A DNA stretch of 64,000 nt from Candidatus Methylobacter titanis (GCA_029946125.1 JAQSDX010000006.1:1-64000), one strand, 5' to 3'; positions 14,227-64,000 are shown, numbered from the stretch's first letter. The notes: generated from the sequence alone by a model not told the origin. Numbers and translations: made by a program.

Positions 14227-15417
14227 TTACTCTATTATTGATGCAACGACGCCCGCACCTACTGTACGACCACCTTCACGGATTGCAAAACGCAAACCAT
14301 CTTCCATGGCAATCGGTGAAATCAGCTTTACTTTTACTGAAATGTTATCGCCAGGCATCACCATTTCAACGCCTTCTGGTAACTCTACAGCACCTGTTAC
14401 GTCGGTAGTTCTAAAATAGAACTGCGGACGATAGCCATTAAAGAAAGGCGTATGACGACCACCCTCTTCTTTTGACAAGATATAAATTTCTGAATTAAAG
14501 TACGAATGCGGCTTAATGGTACCTTTATGCGCCAATACCTGTCCACGCTCAACATCGTCTCTTTTGGTACCTCTCAAAAGAATACCGACATTGTCGCCTG
14601 CTTGACCCTGATCAAGCAATTTTCGGAACATTTCCACACCGGTGCATGTTGTTGTCACTGTGGGCTTAATGCCGACAATTTCAATTTCCTGCCCAACCTT
14701 AACAATGCCGCGCTCAATACGACCTGTTACCACTGTACCGCGGCCTGAGATTGAGAATACATCTTCGATAGGCATCAGGAATGCACCATCGACTGCTCTT
14801 TCCGGCAAAGGAATGTAGGTGTCTAATGCTTCCACTAATTTCACCACCGAAGGAACTCCGATTTCACTGGTATCGCCTTGCAATGCAAGTAAAGCTGAGC
14901 CTACGATAATTGGCGTATCATCACCTGGAAATTCGTACATATCCAATAACTCGCGAATTTCCATTTCGACTAATTCGATCAACTCCGCATCATCAACCAT
15001 GTCCGCTTTGTTTAAGAAAACCACTACGTATGGCACGCCTACTTGCCTTGATAACAGAATGTGCTCTCTTGTTTGCGGCATGGGTCCATCAGCTGCTGAA
15101 CAGACCAGAATAGCGCCGTCCATTTGCGCCGCACCGGTAATCATGTTTTTTACGTAATCAGCATGACCTGGGCAGTCAACGTGCGCATAATGACGCGCTG
15201 CTGATTCATATTCGACGTGTGACGTGGAAATAGTAATACCACGCGCACGCTCTTCAGGTGCATTATCAATCTGATCAAAGGCCTTAACTTCTCCACCCTG
15301 GAGCTCAGCCATTACTTTTGTTAAAGCAGCAGTTAAGGTGGTTTTACCATGATCGACATGTCCGATTGTGCCGACGTTTACGTGCGGCTTACTACGCGAG
15401 AATTTTTCTTTGGCCAT
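14227..15417 (-). CDS. tuf: Elongation factor Tu (copy 1, str operon)
   Basis: 396 residues. The GTPase motifs are all present: GHVDHGKTT (P-loop), DCPGHADY (G3), NKAD (G4) and SAL (G5). Domains 2 and 3 follow from about residue 205. EF-Tu delivers aminoacyl-tRNA to the ribosome. The product differs from the second copy (30724-31914) only at the third residue from the end (SIIE here, SILE there). The coding DNA appears identical over nearly its whole length, while the flanks differ. The gene lies between fusA and rpsJ. Confidence 0.98.
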
Positions 15418-30704: not shown

Positions 30705-30731
30705 ATTATACTAAATAATATTATTATTCAA
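30705..30731 (-). promoter_or_regulatory. Possible promoter for tRNA-Trp-secE-nusG
   Basis: On the minus strand TATAAT (30705-30710) lies 30 bp upstream of the tRNA-Trp 5' end. TTGAAT at 30726-30731, in the last codons of tuf, is a possible -35 box, but the spacer is only 15 bp. The -10 box is perfect and the -35 is weak. The genes may instead rely on read-through from tuf. Confidence 0.4.
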
Positions 30732-31914
30732 GTATTGATGCAACGACGCCCGCACCTACTGTACGACCACCTTCACGGATTGCAAAACGCAAACCATCTT
30801 CCATGGCAATCGGTGAAATCAGCTTTACTTTTACTGAAATGTTATCGCCAGGCATCACCATTTCAACGCCTTCTGGTAACTCTACAGCACCTGTTACGTC
30901 GGTAGTTCTAAAATAGAACTGCGGACGATAGCCATTAAAGAAAGGCGTATGACGACCACCCTCTTCTTTTGACAAGATATAAATTTCTGAATTAAAGTAC
31001 GAATGCGGCTTAATGGTACCTTTATGCGCCAATACCTGTCCACGCTCAACATCGTCTCTTTTGGTACCTCTCAAAAGAATACCGACATTGTCGCCTGCTT
31101 GACCCTGATCAAGCAATTTTCGGAACATTTCCACACCGGTGCATGTTGTTGTCACTGTGGGCTTAATGCCGACAATTTCAATTTCCTGCCCAACCTTAAC
31201 AATGCCGCGCTCAATACGACCTGTTACCACTGTACCGCGGCCTGAGATTGAGAATACATCTTCGATAGGCATCAGGAATGCACCATCGACTGCTCTTTCC
31301 GGCAAAGGAATGTAGGTGTCTAATGCTTCCACTAATTTCACCACCGAAGGAACTCCGATTTCACTGGTATCGCCTTGCAATGCAAGTAAAGCTGAGCCTA
31401 CGATAATTGGCGTATCATCACCTGGAAATTCGTACATATCCAATAACTCGCGAATTTCCATTTCGACTAATTCGATCAACTCCGCATCATCAACCATGTC
31501 CGCTTTGTTTAAGAAAACCACTACGTATGGCACGCCTACTTGCCTTGATAACAGAATGTGCTCTCTTGTTTGCGGCATGGGTCCATCAGCTGCTGAACAG
31601 ACCAGAATAGCGCCGTCCATTTGCGCCGCACCGGTAATCATGTTTTTTACGTAATCAGCATGACCTGGGCAGTCAACGTGCGCATAATGACGCGCTGCTG
31701 ATTCATATTCGACGTGTGACGTGGAAATAGTAATACCACGCGCACGCTCTTCAGGTGCATTATCAATCTGATCAAAGGCCTTAACTTCTCCACCCTGGAG
31801 CTCAGCCATTACTTTTGTTAAAGCAGCAGTTAAGGTGGTTTTACCATGATCGACATGTCCGATTGTGCCGACGTTTACGTGCGGCTTACTACGCGAGAAT
31901 TTTTCTTTGGCCAT
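30724..31914 (-). CDS. tuf: Elongation factor Tu (copy 2, tRNA-tufB locus)
   Basis: 396 residues with the same GTPase motifs as the copy at 14227-15417. The two proteins differ only near the C-terminus (SILE here). The flanks are unrelated from the base after the start codon outward and from the last four codons onward, so both copies are real loci kept alike by gene conversion. It lies downstream of tRNA-Tyr, Gly and Thr, as tufB does in E. coli, and is probably cut from the same primary transcript. Confidence 0.98.
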
Positions 31915-59086: not shown

Positions 59087-59695
59087 ATGCCGATAACCAT
59101 CCGAAATCTGGGTATCCAGCCCTATGAATCCACCTGGCAAGACATGCAGCGACTCACCCAAAATCGCGATGCCCAAACCGCTGATGAAATCTGGATTACA
59201 GAACACCCTGCCGTTTATACGCTGGGTCTAAACGGCAAGCGTGAGCACCTGCTGAATACCGAGGCCATACCCGTCATTAATTCCGACCGGGGCGGACAGG
59301 TGACCTATCACGGCCCCGGCCAGCTGATTATTTATACCCTGATCGATATTAAACGGCTGAATCTCGGCATTCGATCACTAGTCACCATCCTCGAACAAGC
59401 CATGATCTTTGCCTTGGCGCAATACAGTATTATCGCGGTCGCCCGAGCCGATGCCCCCGGCGTTTATGTCAATGACAAAAAAATCGGCTCCATCGGGCTA
59501 CGTATTAAAAGAAATTGCAGCTATCATGGCCTGAGTATCAACAACCACATGGATTTGCGCCCTTTCGACCACATCAATACCTGCGGCTATTCGGGCCTTG
59601 AAGTAACCCAACTGGCCGATCTGGGCGTGACCGTCAGCAATGCTGAACTCGCCATTCCTGTTACCCAAGCTATCATCACGGCATTAGCAAAATGA
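59087..59695 (+). CDS. lipB: Octanoyltransferase LipB
   Basis: 202 residues. [20 protein letters not shown] carries the conserved histidine loop, [20 protein letters not shown] holds the catalytic lysine, and [13 protein letters not shown] the catalytic cysteine. LipB moves octanoyl groups from acyl carrier protein to lipoyl domains. Its last 4 bases overlap lipA (ATGA). Confidence 0.96.
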
Positions 59696-60681
59696 CTTAT
59701 CAAGCGCCCTCCCGTTCCACGCCCGAATCTCACCAGCGCAACACCGAAAAGCTGGCAAAAATCCCGATCAAAGTAGAGCCGGCCGAAACGACTTTGCGCA
59801 AACCGGAGTGGATACGCATAAAAATATCGGCCAGCGACGAAGTCACCCGCATCAAGCAACTGCTGCGCGAAAACAACCTGCATACCGTTTGCGAAGAAGC
59901 CGCCTGCCCCAACCTGGGCGAATGTTTCCAGCACGGCACCGCCACCTTCATGATCATGGGCGATTTGTGTACCCGTCGCTGCCCTTTTTGCGATGTCGCG
60001 CACGGCAAACCGCTGCCGCTGGATAAAGACGAACCCCAACACCTGGCCGATGCCATACAGGCAATGACCTTGAAATATGTCGTCATCACCTCGGTAGACC
60101 GTGACGATTTAAGAGACGGCGGCGCCGGGCATTTTGCCGAATGCATCGAAAAAATCCGTTTGCAAACGCCCACCACCAAAATAGAAATCCTGGTACCCGA
60201 CTTTCGCGGACGCATCGAAAAAGCCGTTGCCCTATTAGCCGAACAACCCTGCGACGTATTCAATCACAACTTGGAAACCGTCCCCCGACTGTACAAACAA
60301 GTCCGCCCCGGTTCCGACTACCAAGGCTCGCTGAATTTACTGCAACAATACCACCAAATCCTGCCGCAAGTCCCCACCAAATCGGGCCTGATGCTCGGCG
60401 TAGGCGAACAGCCGGACGAAGTCCATCAAGTCATGAAAGACTTATTGGCCCACGGCTGCTCAATGCTGACCATAGGCCAATACCTGCAACCCAGTAAAGC
60501 CCATTTGCCGGTTCAAAACTACGTCACCCCCGAACAATTTGATGAATACGGCGCAGTTGCAAAAGCCCTAGGGTTTAAACAAGTCGCCAGTGCGCCAATG
60601 GTCAGATCATCCTACCACGCTGACCTTCAGGCTAAGGGCGTAATGCCCGATTGTGACAATTCCAATGCTAAATTGTACTGA
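59692..60681 (+). CDS. lipA: Lipoyl synthase LipA, C-terminal tail replaced
   Basis: 329 residues of the radical SAM family. The auxiliary cluster cysteines are in [12 protein letters not shown] (about 67-78), the SAM cluster in CTRRCPFC (about 93-100), and the RSSYHA serine motif lies near 310. LipA inserts two sulfurs into octanoyl groups. After the conserved YHADLQAKG the tail [14 protein letters not shown] is unlike the family, and the stop codon (60679-60681) lies inside the 20-bp repeat array. The natural end was thus overwritten by inserted DNA, but all catalytic parts remain. Confidence 0.95.
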
Positions 60682-60712
60682 ACATCGCTAATTTGTACTC
60701 TACATCGCTAAA
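60651..60712 (+). repeat. Array of ~20-bp repeats at the lipA 3' end, possible Tn7-like end
   Basis: TTGTACTGAACATCGCTAAT (60673-60692) and TTGTACTCTACATCGCTAAA (60693-60712) match at 17 of 20 bases. A divergent third unit, TTGTGACAATTCCAATGCTA and onward, lies at 60651-60672. A partial GCTACT follows at 60714. Tn7-type ends start with TGT and carry several 20-22-bp transposase-binding sites of this kind. If TGTGACAAT at 60652 is the outer end, the five bases before it are CCGAT. Confidence 0.55.
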
Positions 60713-60730: not shown

Positions 60731-62461
60731 ATGCGAAAAGCAATCCCAAGGATCAAAGAATTTCCAGATGATGGGCGCATCTGGCGGGTAGATTGGTTTG
60801 GCGGCGTAGAGCGTAATCACATGGTTCCCACTGAACCTAAAATTCAACTCATCATCAGCCCGCTACTGAACGGCGTAACAGACTACGCCGCCTCAAGTGC
60901 GGTCAATCACGAAGAGCGCCGAACAATCAGCATTGGTGTTGGACAACTACCGCTTGTCACCATCGGATCGCTCTGGCTCAACCGCCGCTGTCTCAACGAG
61001 GCAGCGGGCAAAGATAAAATCTTCCATAATCTCATAATTTCACCTGATACAGTTCGCTTAGTTAAGTCCGATATCAAAGTGGACGGACAGCCTCTCATAC
61101 TCAAGCGCTTCCATCAAATCGGAGCCGGGCTCGCAGCAAATTGTCTAGCCATTAAATGGCGTGACGATCCCTACGGCATCATTGTACCTATTGCCGAGAT
61201 TATCCGATTTTACTATGCCATCTCTACCGACTTGGCTAAGGCCATCTTTGCCGGCGACTTCCGTCATGACCTTGGCTCGATCGTGAACCCTGCTGAGTGC
61301 GCTTTCATCGAGCAGGAAAAACGCTGTTTGCTCAAACTGCGCAAGGAGTTCGCAGATGCAGACGCTTGGATTATTGGTCGCATTCTGAACAATCAGGAAG
61401 CCTTTGCAGGAGCCACTCTCGTGCATGATTCCATGATCAAGGAGGCTGTGCAAAACAAACCACGCCTATATCCGAAAGCCGCATTCCCTTTCATTGCTTC
61501 AACCAACCTGCGAGCACGGGTGAAGCCAATGCGAACGCCAGATGATAGCGGCTGGCGTTATATCGTTTTCGCCTTGGAACATTGCACCGGGCCGTTTCCT
61601 TTTGATGCAATCACCTGCGATCGAGATAATAGCAACCTGCGCCCAGAAAAAGACGAAGATCTTCCAGACGATCAGAAAAAACCTGCATTTCCGGCTAAAC
61701 CGGCTTCTGGTAAGGACATGACCGATGGGGAATTGCAGAGTGACAATGAACCTTCCAACAATATGCAATCGGCAGTCGTTACCCTGCCAGAGGATCGTTT
61801 TGGTGCATTGTCCAGCATGGAACTGGAAAAGCCAGAAAAAGAGATGTGTCATCACATTAGCGCCGATACTGTTCGCCCCCTCGCTTTGCCAACAGATGTA
61901 CTCGGTACTGGTGATGGCACCTATTCGGACAACGGAGTGACTCCAACAGTGGTAGAAACTGAACGTGTGCGTCAGACTCCTCTACCGGTCAGCTTCGGAA
62001 ATTTCGAGGCTATGATACGGTATTTGGATGAGTTACCGGGATACCAGGCTAGAATCCGGCCGATAAAAGACTCCATAGAGCACATTCCGCTGACAAAGCC
62101 ACGATGGACTAGACAATGGAGTTACCTGGATTCCGGACGGAAAATCAAGCGCTCAGTAGTAATCGCCGATGTAATTTATAAGCAGCAAGTCTACAGTTTG
62201 GTCGAATTTCAATGGCGTGAAGGGGAGGCGTTCAAACTTGCCTTGATGTCTTTGCCCAGTGGCATACGGACGAGTGATGAGCTGATGAATAAATTGCTCT
62301 ATGTGCTGGCCAAAAAAACTGGACGCTGGGAAAATACAAAGCCACTGCCAGCAGATATTCGCCTCGCAACACTAAAACATACATGGCCATGTGTAGGAGC
62401 ATACGCTGATGCGGTGACATCAAAAATCCATGTGCTGTTTCAGTTTGGTGATGACAATTAA
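60731..62461 (+). CDS. TnsE-like protein (Tn7-type target selection)
   Basis: 576 residues. The N-terminal part has RIWRVDWFGG (16-25); the central part has IIVPIAEIIRFYYAIST (140-156). Then comes a charged, low-complexity linker (about 310-415) and a C-terminal domain (about 424-576) with VVIADVIYKQQVYSLVEFQW. This order of a WR-x-x-WF strand, a PxxE-(x)2-R helix and a C-terminal beta domain is what I recall of Tn7 TnsE, which directs transposition to replicating DNA. No transposase genes (tnsABCD) are in the window, so function is inferred. It starts 18 bp after the repeat array. Assignment is from motif memory and needs a profile search. Confidence 0.6.
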   Translation: MRKAIPRIKEFPDDGRIWRVDWFGGVERNHMVPTEPKIQLIISPLLNGVTDYAASSAVNHEERRTISIGVGQLPLVTIGSLWLNRRCLNEAAGKDKIFHNLIISPDTVRLVKSDIKVDGQPLILKRFHQIGAGLAANCLAIKWRDDPYGIIVPIAEIIRFYYAISTDLAKAIFAGDFRHDLGSIVNPAECAFIEQEKRCLLKLRKEFADADAWIIGRILNNQEAFAGATLVHDSMIKEAVQNKPRLYPKAAFPFIASTNLRARVKPMRTPDDSGWRYIVFALEHCTGPFPFDAITCDRDNSNLRPEKDEDLPDDQKKPAFPAKPASGKDMTDGELQSDNEPSNNMQSAVVTLPEDRFGALSSMELEKPEKEMCHHISADTVRPLALPTDVLGTGDGTYSDNGVTPTVVETERVRQTPLPVSFGNFEAMIRYLDELPGYQARIRPIKDSIEHIPLTKPRWTRQWSYLDSGRKIKRSVVIADVIYKQQVYSLVEFQWREGEAFKLALMSLPSGIRTSDELMNKLLYVLAKKTGRWENTKPLPADIRLATLKHTWPCVGAYADAVTSKIHVLFQFGDDN

Positions 62462-62584
62462 TCCAGTCGTATCTAGTTTCTAGCATATTCTGACATAGAC
62501 ACTTCGAAAAACCCATGCATCATGAGATAATGATATGGTGGCGATCGGTCAACTAACAGCATAGCCCATAATCAAAGAAACGAT

Positions 62585-64000
62585 ATGAATAATCCAGTTC
62601 CTCCTAAGCTTCATTTTGATGTAAGTACAGGACTAAAAAGCGTACTAGGGAGCGAACTTATCACTGATGATGAGGTAGCCATTTTTGAGCTTGTAAAGAA
62701 TTCATTTGATGCTGACGCAACACAAGTTGATCTGTTTTTTGGAGATAATCAAATTATCGTCGCCGACAATGGCGTTGGAATGACTTATGACGATATTCGC
62801 AAAAAATGGCTTTTTGTTGCTTACTCATCGAAAAAATCACCTAATAAACTTAGTGACTTCCGGGATGACATAGCAGAGCGAAGGCATTACGCAGGTAGTA
62901 AAGGAATCGGGAGATTCTCATCTGACCGTCTTGGTGGAGTGGTTAGGCTCCAGACTCGCACAAACTCCGAGGTGTCGGGGCCCGTCCATTCAATAGTCGT
63001 TGATTGGACTCTCTTTGACAATAACCACCTCGACCACTTTGAAAGCATTGGCGTTACTTACACACCTCAATCAACTGGATTTATAATTCCCACAGAGATT
63101 CCAAGACTAAAATTCGGCACCGTCATTACTATTGAAAAAACTCGATGTGTTTGGAATCGAGATAAAATTCTTCGAATTAAGTCGGCACTTGCGAAACTTA
63201 TTAATCCATTTGGTGCGGAGGCAGATGGGTTTCGTATCATGATACACGCACCCTCTGAACAAAAGGCTGATCAAACAGCGCTAATGCTGGCAATAAAAGA
63301 AGATAAAGTAGAAGATCTATCTCCAAACGCTTTGGTAAATGGTGAAGTTGGGAACTTCATTTTTTCTACCCTTCAAGTTAAAACAACTTTCATCAAGGTG
63401 CATATACCCCCTGAAGGGAACTACATTGAAAGTTCGCTTACGGATCGTGGGGAGTTGATTTATCGCATTAGAGAGCCGAACATTTACCCCTTACTCACGC
63501 GATCTGGATTTCAGTGTCAATTATTCTTCCTGAACCAGTCCGCAAAGATGACTTTTGCCAAACGAATGGGTGTGCCATCCGTTCAGTTTGGCTCGGTTTT
63601 TCTATTTCGGAATGGTTTTCGCGTATTCCCAATTGGAGAAGAGGGGAATGATTGGTACAAGATGGATCGTCGTAAGGCGCAGGGTTACGCGCGGTATCTT
63701 GGCACACGTGATGTTATTGGCCGAATCGATGTTTCCGGTGCTGATAGTGATTTTCAAGAAGCTACCAGCCGAAATGCCGGGTTGATTGAAACTCCGGCAG
63801 TAGAACAATTAAGTAAGTGTTTTCTAGATCATTGTTTAAAGCGTCTGGAGCGTTATGTTGTTCCTGTCACTTTTGTTGATGTAGAAGATAAGCTTACTAG
63901 TGATCTGTCACGCCTTCTGACAGACCCAGGCCGAGCGCGTGTTACTTCTGTAATAGCCAAGCTTGTCGATAGCGAGGAAGTTGAACTTCTCGAATACAGT
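62585..64000 (+). CDS. GHKL (Hsp90-like) ATPase, partial, runs off the window
   Basis: The frame is open from the ATG at 62585 to the last base, 472 codons with no stop, so the 3' end is missing. The GHKL nucleotide site is complete: N box IFELVKNSFDADATQ (about 34-47), G1 box DNGVGM (61-66) and G2 box GSKGIGRFSSDRLG (104-117). This resembles the MORC/Hsp90-type ATPases found in mobile and defence-linked loci, not a sensor kinase, since no histidine phosphoacceptor domain precedes it. The family and role are not known to me. It follows the TnsE-like gene by 123 bp, in which I see no clear promoter. Confidence 0.8.
   Translation, partial: MNNPVPPKLHFDVSTGLKSVLGSELITDDEVAIFELVKNSFDADATQVDLFFGDNQIIVADNGVGMTYDDIRKKWLFVAYSSKKSPNKLSDFRDDIAERRHYAGSKGIGRFSSDRLGGVVRLQTRTNSEVSGPVHSIVVDWTLFDNNHLDHFESIGVTYTPQSTGFIIPTEIPRLKFGTVITIEKTRCVWNRDKILRIKSALAKLINPFGAEADGFRIMIHAPSEQKADQTALMLAIKEDKVEDLSPNALVNGEVGNFIFSTLQVKTTFIKVHIPPEGNYIESSLTDRGELIYRIREPNIYPLLTRSGFQCQLFFLNQSAKMTFAKRMGVPSVQFGSVFLFRNGFRVFPIGEEGNDWYKMDRRKAQGYARYLGTRDVIGRIDVSGADSDFQEATSRNAGLIETPAVEQLSKCFLDHCLKRLERYVVPVTFVDVEDKLTSDLSRLLTDPGRARVTSVIAKLVDSEEVELLEYS

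Follow-up and report, generated by a model that had tools for sequence, protein, structure and literature searches.

The DNA analysed here is a window of 64,000 nucleotides (positions 1-64000 of an 84.8-kb contig, JAQSDX010000006.1, of Candidatus Methylobacter titanis, GCA_029946125.1), together with a flanking stretch, contig 60001-80000. At the right edge of the window two open reading frames (ORFs) lie on the same (+) strand, the second of which (62585-64000) is cut by the window edge and ends at contig position 64969. The first-pass annotation had placed this pair at the edge of inserted DNA, and indeed a complete Tn7-like transposon of 11.9 kb (60654..72527) is inserted here across the stop codon of lipA, with the window ending inside the element. 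Its genes follow the order TnsE-like, ATPase, response regulator, vsr, C5-methyltransferase, tniQ, tnsC, tnsB and tnsA, such that vsr sits between the regulator and methyltransferase genes (Table 1).

Table 1. Features of the lipA-associated transposon and its cargo (contig numbering, identical to that of the window up to 64000).
Feature	Position	Strand	Basis and remarks
lipA (lipoyl synthase), attachment site	59692..60681	+	Final codons (CDNSNAKLY) read from the transposon end
Target-site duplication GATTG	Left copy 60649..60653; right copy contig 72528-72532, outside window	.	Sequence reading
Left transposon end, terminal inverted repeat starting TGACAATTCCAATGCTAAATTGTACTG	60654..60693	+	Repeat search; with 20-bp direct repeat
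Divergent TnsE (profile-based), 576 aa, transposon core gene	60731..62461	+	hhalign vs canonical TnsE; conserved downstream of lipA
paraMORC-type GHKL ATPase / histidine kinase (P0001), 794 aa	62585..64000 in window, continues to contig 64969	+	Pfam, HK853 profile, Foldseek
Response regulator (P0002), 311 aa	64966-65901	+	4-bp overlap with ATPase gene; beyond window edge
vsr	66046-66449	+	Pfam Vsr 5.6e-19; beyond window edge
C5-methyltransferase	66403-67824	-	Pfam DNA_methylase 3.4e-48; beyond window edge
tniQ	68115-68981	-	Pfam TniQ 2.1e-31; beyond window edge
tnsC	68978-69865	-	Pfam TniB 7.4e-78; beyond window edge
tnsB	69862-71757	-	Pfam Mu-transpos_C 2.2e-10; beyond window edge
tnsA	71739-72392	-	Pfam TnsA_N 1.4e-16; beyond window edge
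Right transposon end, TGACAATTCCAATGCTAAATTGTACTG inverted, ending at 72527	contig 72488-72527, outside window		Repeat search

The element combines the features expected of the Tn7-like class, namely tnsA, tnsB, tnsC and tniQ genes, inverted ends, a 5-bp duplication on both sides and a fixed site. The arms of the inverted repeat are 40 nt long, 85% complementary and 11794 nt apart, and the direct repeat at the left end probably represents TnsB sites. Joining the flanks restores the lipA codons ...CCC GAT TGA, and hence the element straddles the stop codon of lipA, the final codons of which it now provides. Five related elements have their transposon end 44-48 bp beyond the codons TCNTCNTAYCAYGC of lipA (SSYHAD codons), as counted on the sequences themselves; in one of them (locus L018) the target-site duplication is TTTTA. 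This spacing is that expected of a TniQ/TnsD-type selector reading lipA, which suggests that TniQ targets lipA. In the copy studied here tniQ stops prematurely at residue 288, whereas the L018 and L019 versions read through, so this copy may have lost the ability to home; the stop could also be an assembly error. We found no description of lipA as a Tn7-like insertion site in the open-access literature, and this recurrent attachment site at the 3' end of lipA should be of use to transposon biologists. Tn6022-like elements have been described with remote TnsE genes close to their left end (Faure et al., 2023; PMC10293859), and the present element resembles them in having tnsABC-tniQ at one end, a lone divergent TnsE near the other and cargo in between. 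However, Tn6022-like elements use TnsF and insert in comM, whereas the present element sits at the lipA 3' end and has no ORF of at least 90 aa, as a candidate tnsF, between tniQ and the methyltransferase gene.

The product of the first ORF yielded no match in Pfam, NCBIfam, PADLOC or PDB sequence searches, and was not matched by the TnsE_C model (PF18623) either, although that model found canonical TnsE elsewhere in the same order. Nevertheless, when an alignment of ten proteins of this type (A5) was compared by hhalign with four PF18623-positive TnsE proteins, the two matched over 323 columns at E 9.9e-8 (reversed controls, 0.2-0.4), in agreement with the earlier reading of this ORF as TnsE-like. 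Furthermore, a plasmid relative (L208) is matched by both profiles, and four further genomes of the same order have the gene immediately downstream of lipA (L018, 93%; L019, ~90%; L020, 71%; L023, 64%). On the strength of these profile comparisons, the ORF is best regarded as a divergent TnsE, a target-choosing core gene of the transposon that lies outside the kinase/RNase module described below.

The second ORF had been annotated as a GHKL/Hsp90-type ATPase, and a GHKL ATPase of the MORC/MutL kind is supported: the portion within the window matches HATPase_c_3 at E 5e-16, and an AlphaFold2 model of a relative (L071; pLDDT 83) retrieves SMCHD1 (2.7e-10), MutL LN40 (2e-9) and also Hsp90 in Foldseek searches. 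The complete gene confirms the GHKL module and adds a kinase half. P0001 consists of an N-terminal HATPase_c_3 domain (residues 30-131) with an S5-like module, a coiled coil, DHp helices carrying H584, and a C-terminal HATPase_c domain (690-792). The combination of an N-terminal GHKL domain and an S5-type module is that of the paraMORC/MORC ATPases; HATPase_c_3 is detected in 60/60 relatives, with E35, N39, D61, G63, G65, G107 and G109 invariant. In the kinase half, H584 and the N, G1 and G2 boxes (N702, G733, G756, G758, G760) are invariant in 60-80 sequences. The family profile matches HK853 at 1.6e-14 across the DHp and CA domains and ZraS at 3.8e-15, the invariant histidine aligns with the phospho-histidine of the HK853 motif 'ISHEL', and the HK853-RR468 complex is also retrieved by the L071 model (4e-11). 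No nuclease domain of Pfam was detected in the ATPase by domain search. The kinase half and the receiver partner of the complete gene rule out an orphan chaperone-like ATPase of the Hsp90/MORC type.

The adjoining response regulator begins 4 bp before the ATPase stop codon. Accordingly, the statements of the first-pass annotation that the locus is a two-gene cassette and that the ATPase has no kinase partner do not stand: both are artefacts of the window edge, which cuts the locus, the full ATPase containing its own histidine-kinase module next to a response-regulator partner. Among the regulators, the Response_reg domain is matched in 54/71, the receiver aspartate D66 is present in 74/74, as are Y94, R143-G144, R252 and H257 (N253 in 71/74), and the canonical lysine of REC strand beta5 is replaced by arginine (R118) in 72/74 (97%). 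Thus, the residues by which a two-component pair is recognized are in place, namely a phospho-histidine in a DHp helix, the N/G1/G2 boxes and the receiver aspartate. In the model of the L071 regulator (pLDDT 91), the receiver (1-116) is followed by long helices and a mostly helical C-terminal half, in which RNxLAH ends a helix that is followed by a hairpin and the last helix. The receiver half of this model matches the REC fold and is the only part reported by a whole-model Foldseek search; a viral fold library search likewise returned receiver and Rossmann-type matches only. No DNA-binding output domain was found by domain search or in the model and no DNase domain was found, nuclease Pfam matches being limited to weak HEPN-type ones. 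A weak PADLOC match to a HamA-like domain was dropped, having no support in relatives.

The RNxLAH motif is typical of HEPN RNases, which are recognized by RX4-6H with a polar residue after the arginine, a pattern that the regulator displays. The C-terminal halves show weak Pfam matches to RiboL-PSP-HEPN (3 members, best 3e-4), Abi_2 (3), MAE_28990 (2), LA2681 and Apea, and hhalign comparison with two HEPN families gave E 0.006 and 0.019, with mainly the motif aligned, compared to 0.28-0.62 for reversed controls. PDB sequence searches with this half gave nothing useful. Identity across the rest of this domain is about 25%, with conservation peaking at the R and H of the motif. Taken together, these sequence data support well the view that the C-terminal half is probably a HEPN domain.

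Using three ATPases as queries, we collected 88 homologous loci, spread over about a dozen phyla: 80 full or partial ones from genome contigs and 8 from viral contigs, of which at least 2 duplicate genome loci. The phospho-histidine, the phospho-aspartate and the HEPN R and H are essentially invariant across them. The adjoining regulator is a complete REC-HEPN protein in 76 loci, is partial at contig ends in 3 and lies beyond the end of the contig in another 3; 4/88 loci (Bacteroidota) encode a stand-alone receiver without HEPN, and 2/88 (L136, L147) a different tail with an extra gene, for which a caspase/CHAT-like reading found no Pfam or NCBIfam support. A C5-methyltransferase gene lies within four genes in 79/88 loci. 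In 33 loci the genes, overlapping by a few bp, are ordered Dcm>GHKL>REC, and in 38 Dcm is convergent, mostly overlapping the 3' end of REC by about 20-120 bp. The distance matrices correlate (GHKL-REC r = 0.91, GHKL-Dcm r = 0.70, permutation p 0.002), with shared ancestry contributing to these values. No cognate DNA endonuclease was found beside the methyltransferase, only Vsr in some loci, such that these are not type II restriction-modification (R-M) systems.

The ATPase tree conflicts with taxonomy, the protein of the window grouping with sequences from Ignavibacteriota (73%) and Myxococcota (74%). Five copies of the module are associated with Tn7-like elements: that of the window, one in Aeromonas after a canonical tnsABCDE (L084), one in Hahella that follows a TnsF-like gene within a comM-type element (L091), and those in Rhodospirillaceae (L093) and Lysinibacillus (L123). 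These represent five separate changes on the ATPase tree, and by this phylogenetic reckoning Tn7-like elements captured the module five times independently. Other neighbours include phage integrases (7/124), resolvases, type I R-M and MADS genes, raw counts that give context rather than enrichment; Vsr occurs in 11 loci, and some module loci are found in viral contigs. The suggestion that the ATPase is cargo with a likely link to defence is in keeping with these data.

Taking the observed gene unit, its domains, invariant residues and distribution as the starting point, we infer the sensed signal, the direction of regulation, the RNase activity and the anti-phage role as follows. The C5-methyltransferase would mark self DNA, and a dimeric GHKL+S5 clamp of the paraMORC/MutL kind would detect foreign DNA, either by its unmodified target sites or by an infection-associated DNA structure; this trigger is a guess, and no residues for binding DNA or sensing methylation were identified. 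Driven by ATP, the clamp would close and switch on the C-terminal kinase, which would autophosphorylate at H584 and pass the phosphate to D66 of the regulator, both residues being invariant. Phosphorylation could then change the dimer state of the regulator, allowing its C-terminal half to act as a HEPN RNase, and the predicted RNase would cut RNA and stop either phage growth or host translation. Given the conserved ATP-binding, phospho-His, phospho-Asp and probable RNase sites, the methyltransferase and the clamp, together with the lack of a DNA-binding output or a DNase, the simplest interpretation is that a sensor of R-M-like type signals to an RNase through a phosphorelay. Thus, we propose, with a probability of roughly 0.6, that a lipA-targeting Tn7-like transposon carries here, as cargo, a mobile module of three genes whose sensor-kinase is the ATPase and in which a phosphorelay wires restriction-like sensing to an RNase. 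Such a module probably protects bacteria from viruses. A bolder, tentative extension, which we would hold at somewhat worse than even odds, is that this is a widespread form of immunity in which a MutL/MORC-type clamp checks DNA against the cognate C5 mark and reports a mismatch by His-Asp phosphorelay to the HEPN RNase, restriction being executed on RNA by signalling and not by cutting DNA.

Several other interpretations have to be weighed. The intact kinase and receiver chemistry, the Vsr or HhH-GPD genes nearby and the four loci with a receiver only could point to a conventional cytoplasmic two-component system that regulates the methyltransferase or DNA repair (Vsr) and has no part in immunity, the C-terminal domain of the regulator being a helical bundle for dimerisation or protein binding. 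We consider this unlikely given that a DNA-binding output domain is lacking, that conservation of the C-terminal domain is concentrated in the HEPN motif, and that the distribution is patchy, with horizontal movement on mobile elements. The chances are smaller still for a toxin-antitoxin-like addiction unit, in which the methyltransferase or methylation would restrain the kinase/RNase, loss of the module or of methylation would kill the cell, and protection from phages would be a by-product; tight three-gene linkage, carriage on mobile elements and a methyltransferase that is nearly always close by all agree with this scheme, but the sensor, with its two ATPase domains and almost 800 residues, greatly exceeds the size that an antitoxin would need. 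The module may also have a housekeeping stress role.

Finally, TnsE and the GHKL ATPase could form a functional cassette of their own, the ATPase being, for example, an ATP-dependent helper of TnsE in target choice. The two genes are adjacent on the same strand, a GHKL gene directly follows TnsE in L018, L021 and L084 as well (in L123, Dcm lies between), and GHKL genes occur within the same element in L019, L022, L061 and L123. However, these TnsE-adjacent GHKL proteins belong to different families, and elements at the lipA site have different genes beside a TnsE that is 90% identical. In L018 the cargo comprises Dnd-like genes (identified by eye), an unrelated 569-aa GHKL protein and a 158-aa protein; in L019, where the neighbour of TnsE is a methyltransferase, it comprises an 885-aa GHKL/HK protein, a 229-aa receiver-like protein, a 193-aa HNH-like protein (by eye) and a 533-aa methyltransferase-like gene; and L021 and L022, from another genus, carry other GHKL/receiver/methyltransferase sets. 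Hence GHKL-based systems do recur in these elements, but as different families. Most other TnsE loci lack the arrangement: no GHKL gene lies beside TnsE at the TnsE-anchored loci L024, L025, L027, L028, L199-L205, L207 and L208. Conversely, tns genes are absent from the flanks (up to 8 kb) of 84/88 ATPase relatives, nearly all of which are accompanied by the regulator and the methyltransferase, and the Tn7 association of the family requires five separate origins. We therefore reject the functional pair, which the comparison of same-site elements and of other TnsE loci largely refutes, as very improbable; the linkage of the two genes mostly breaks down in other genomes, while GHKL systems hold up as frequent cargo of this element family, and the recurring order fits cargo beginning right after TnsE. 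Both genes are real, and they are parts of different things, one a transposon gene and the other the sensor of a three-gene module.

Two-component signalling is the commonest sensing chemistry of bacteria and, to our knowledge, has seldom been seen in phage defence. We found no description of a module of MORC-kinase, REC-HEPN and C5-methyltransferase in the open-access literature. The closest known group is that of the HEF_HK/Response_reg_2 two-component-like systems associated with R-M genes (Bellieny-Rabelo et al., 2021; PMC8011034), which shares the layout (a soluble protein with an N-terminal HATPase_c_3 domain, a DHp-like His helix and a C-terminal HATPase_c domain, next to a receiver) and the neighbours (a C5-methyltransferase and Vsr, the latter just downstream of the receiver gene). 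Nevertheless, HEF_HK (PF19191) matched 0/60 of the ATPases at E 0.1, and Response_reg_2 (PF19192) is absent from P0002 and matches 10/71 of its relatives weakly (best 1.7e-4), which places the present proteins outside these families; moreover, the published regulators contain no other known domain, whereas those described here have the RNxLAH HEPN-like half. Predicted defence systems that include HATPase and REC domains are listed in a figure of a 2026 paper (PMC13092281). Among restriction enzymes, the BbrUII/HgiDII family shares the N-terminal GHKL domain and is the closest NCBIfam match of P0001 (1.2e-17, residues 21-220), but the match is limited to the ATPase domain and P0001 has no nuclease region. 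MORC/paraMORC families in R-M neighbourhoods (Iyer et al., 2008; PMC2292703) likewise have a GHKL+S5 ATPase module beside DNA cytosine methylase and Vsr genes; those, however, are paired with helicases or DNases, and a term search of that paper returned no receiver partner. The proposed module would offer a testable answer to the role of paraMORC/histidine-kinase fusions beside methyltransferases. In the paraMORC-Ymh(HEPN) fusions of R-M loci, for which a PrrC-like action has been proposed (Anantharaman et al., 2013; PMC3710099), a paraMORC ATPase is similarly coupled to a HEPN RNase, albeit fused to it, whereas the probable HEPN domain described here follows a receiver domain in a protein of its own. 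VcSduA, a GHKL-Shedu protein with a paraMORC3-type GHKL ATPase and a proven anti-phage function (PMC12137116), employs a fused PD-(D/E)xK nuclease as effector, with no phosphorelay. ATPases of this kind can therefore drive nucleases by fusion, as proposed in the former case and demonstrated experimentally in the latter; if the present reading is correct, a phosphorelay that links a predicted RNase to a methyltransferase and an ATPase of the DNA-scanning type would extend the concept of restriction.

Elements of this Tn7-like family recurrently use the lipA 3' end as their attachment site, which is occupied in the same way in four other genomes of the order (L018, L019, L020 and L023), and in these as in the window copy the insertion point lies 44-48 bp beyond the conserved SSYHAD codons of lipA. 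The open-licence papers searched do not name this site as a Tn7-like target. Elsewhere in the window, two nearly identical tuf (EF-Tu) genes lie on either side of the rpoBC region, which is an ordinary arrangement.

Compared with L018 and L019, tniQ of the window's transposon copy carries a premature stop, past which the codons are still readable; given this stop, the copy is probably homing-defective, the alternative being an assembly error. In vsr, the N-terminal reading frame is broken and the remainder intact.

The cargo at this site varies. In L018, where the same transposon occupies this site, Dnd-like phosphorothioation genes (assigned by eye) are joined by a 569-aa GHKL ATPase and a 158-aa protein encoded on the other strand, possibly as a restriction partner. 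In L019, an 885-aa GHKL/HK gene and receiver-like, HNH-like and MTase-like genes appear to form a related module whose effector would be of the DNase type.

Among the ATPase relatives, two loci (L136 and L147) lack the probable HEPN half and have a different regulator tail and an extra gene, with motifs GHGS/CHGR ... SCNS/TCDS, whose product, by eye, may be caspase-like. In a Bacteroidota branch (L121, L122, L124 and L132), the regulator is a receiver only (124-141 aa), and therefore the effector is elsewhere or absent.

Coordinates of the features discussed
Feature	Locus	Position
lipA 3' end	window	60600-60660
tuf	window	14227-15417
tuf	window	30724-31914
vsr	contig	66046-66449
tniQ	contig	68115-68981
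Dnd-like cargo, 569-aa GHKL ATPase, 158-aa protein	L018	9366-16898
885-aa GHKL/HK, 229-aa receiver-like, 193-aa HNH-like, 533-aa MTase-like genes	L019	4127-9632
extra gene (222-238 aa across the two loci)	L136	11030-11698
extra gene	L147	11012-11728

A second, larger class of GHKL/HK and receiver proteins was also observed (L061, L062, L063, L065, L066, L068, L069 and L021). A Pfam scan of some members gave no clear match; the receivers bear a long C-terminal domain with a [ST]PxCD-like or AxCD motif, and Vsr and a C5-methyltransferase often accompany this class.
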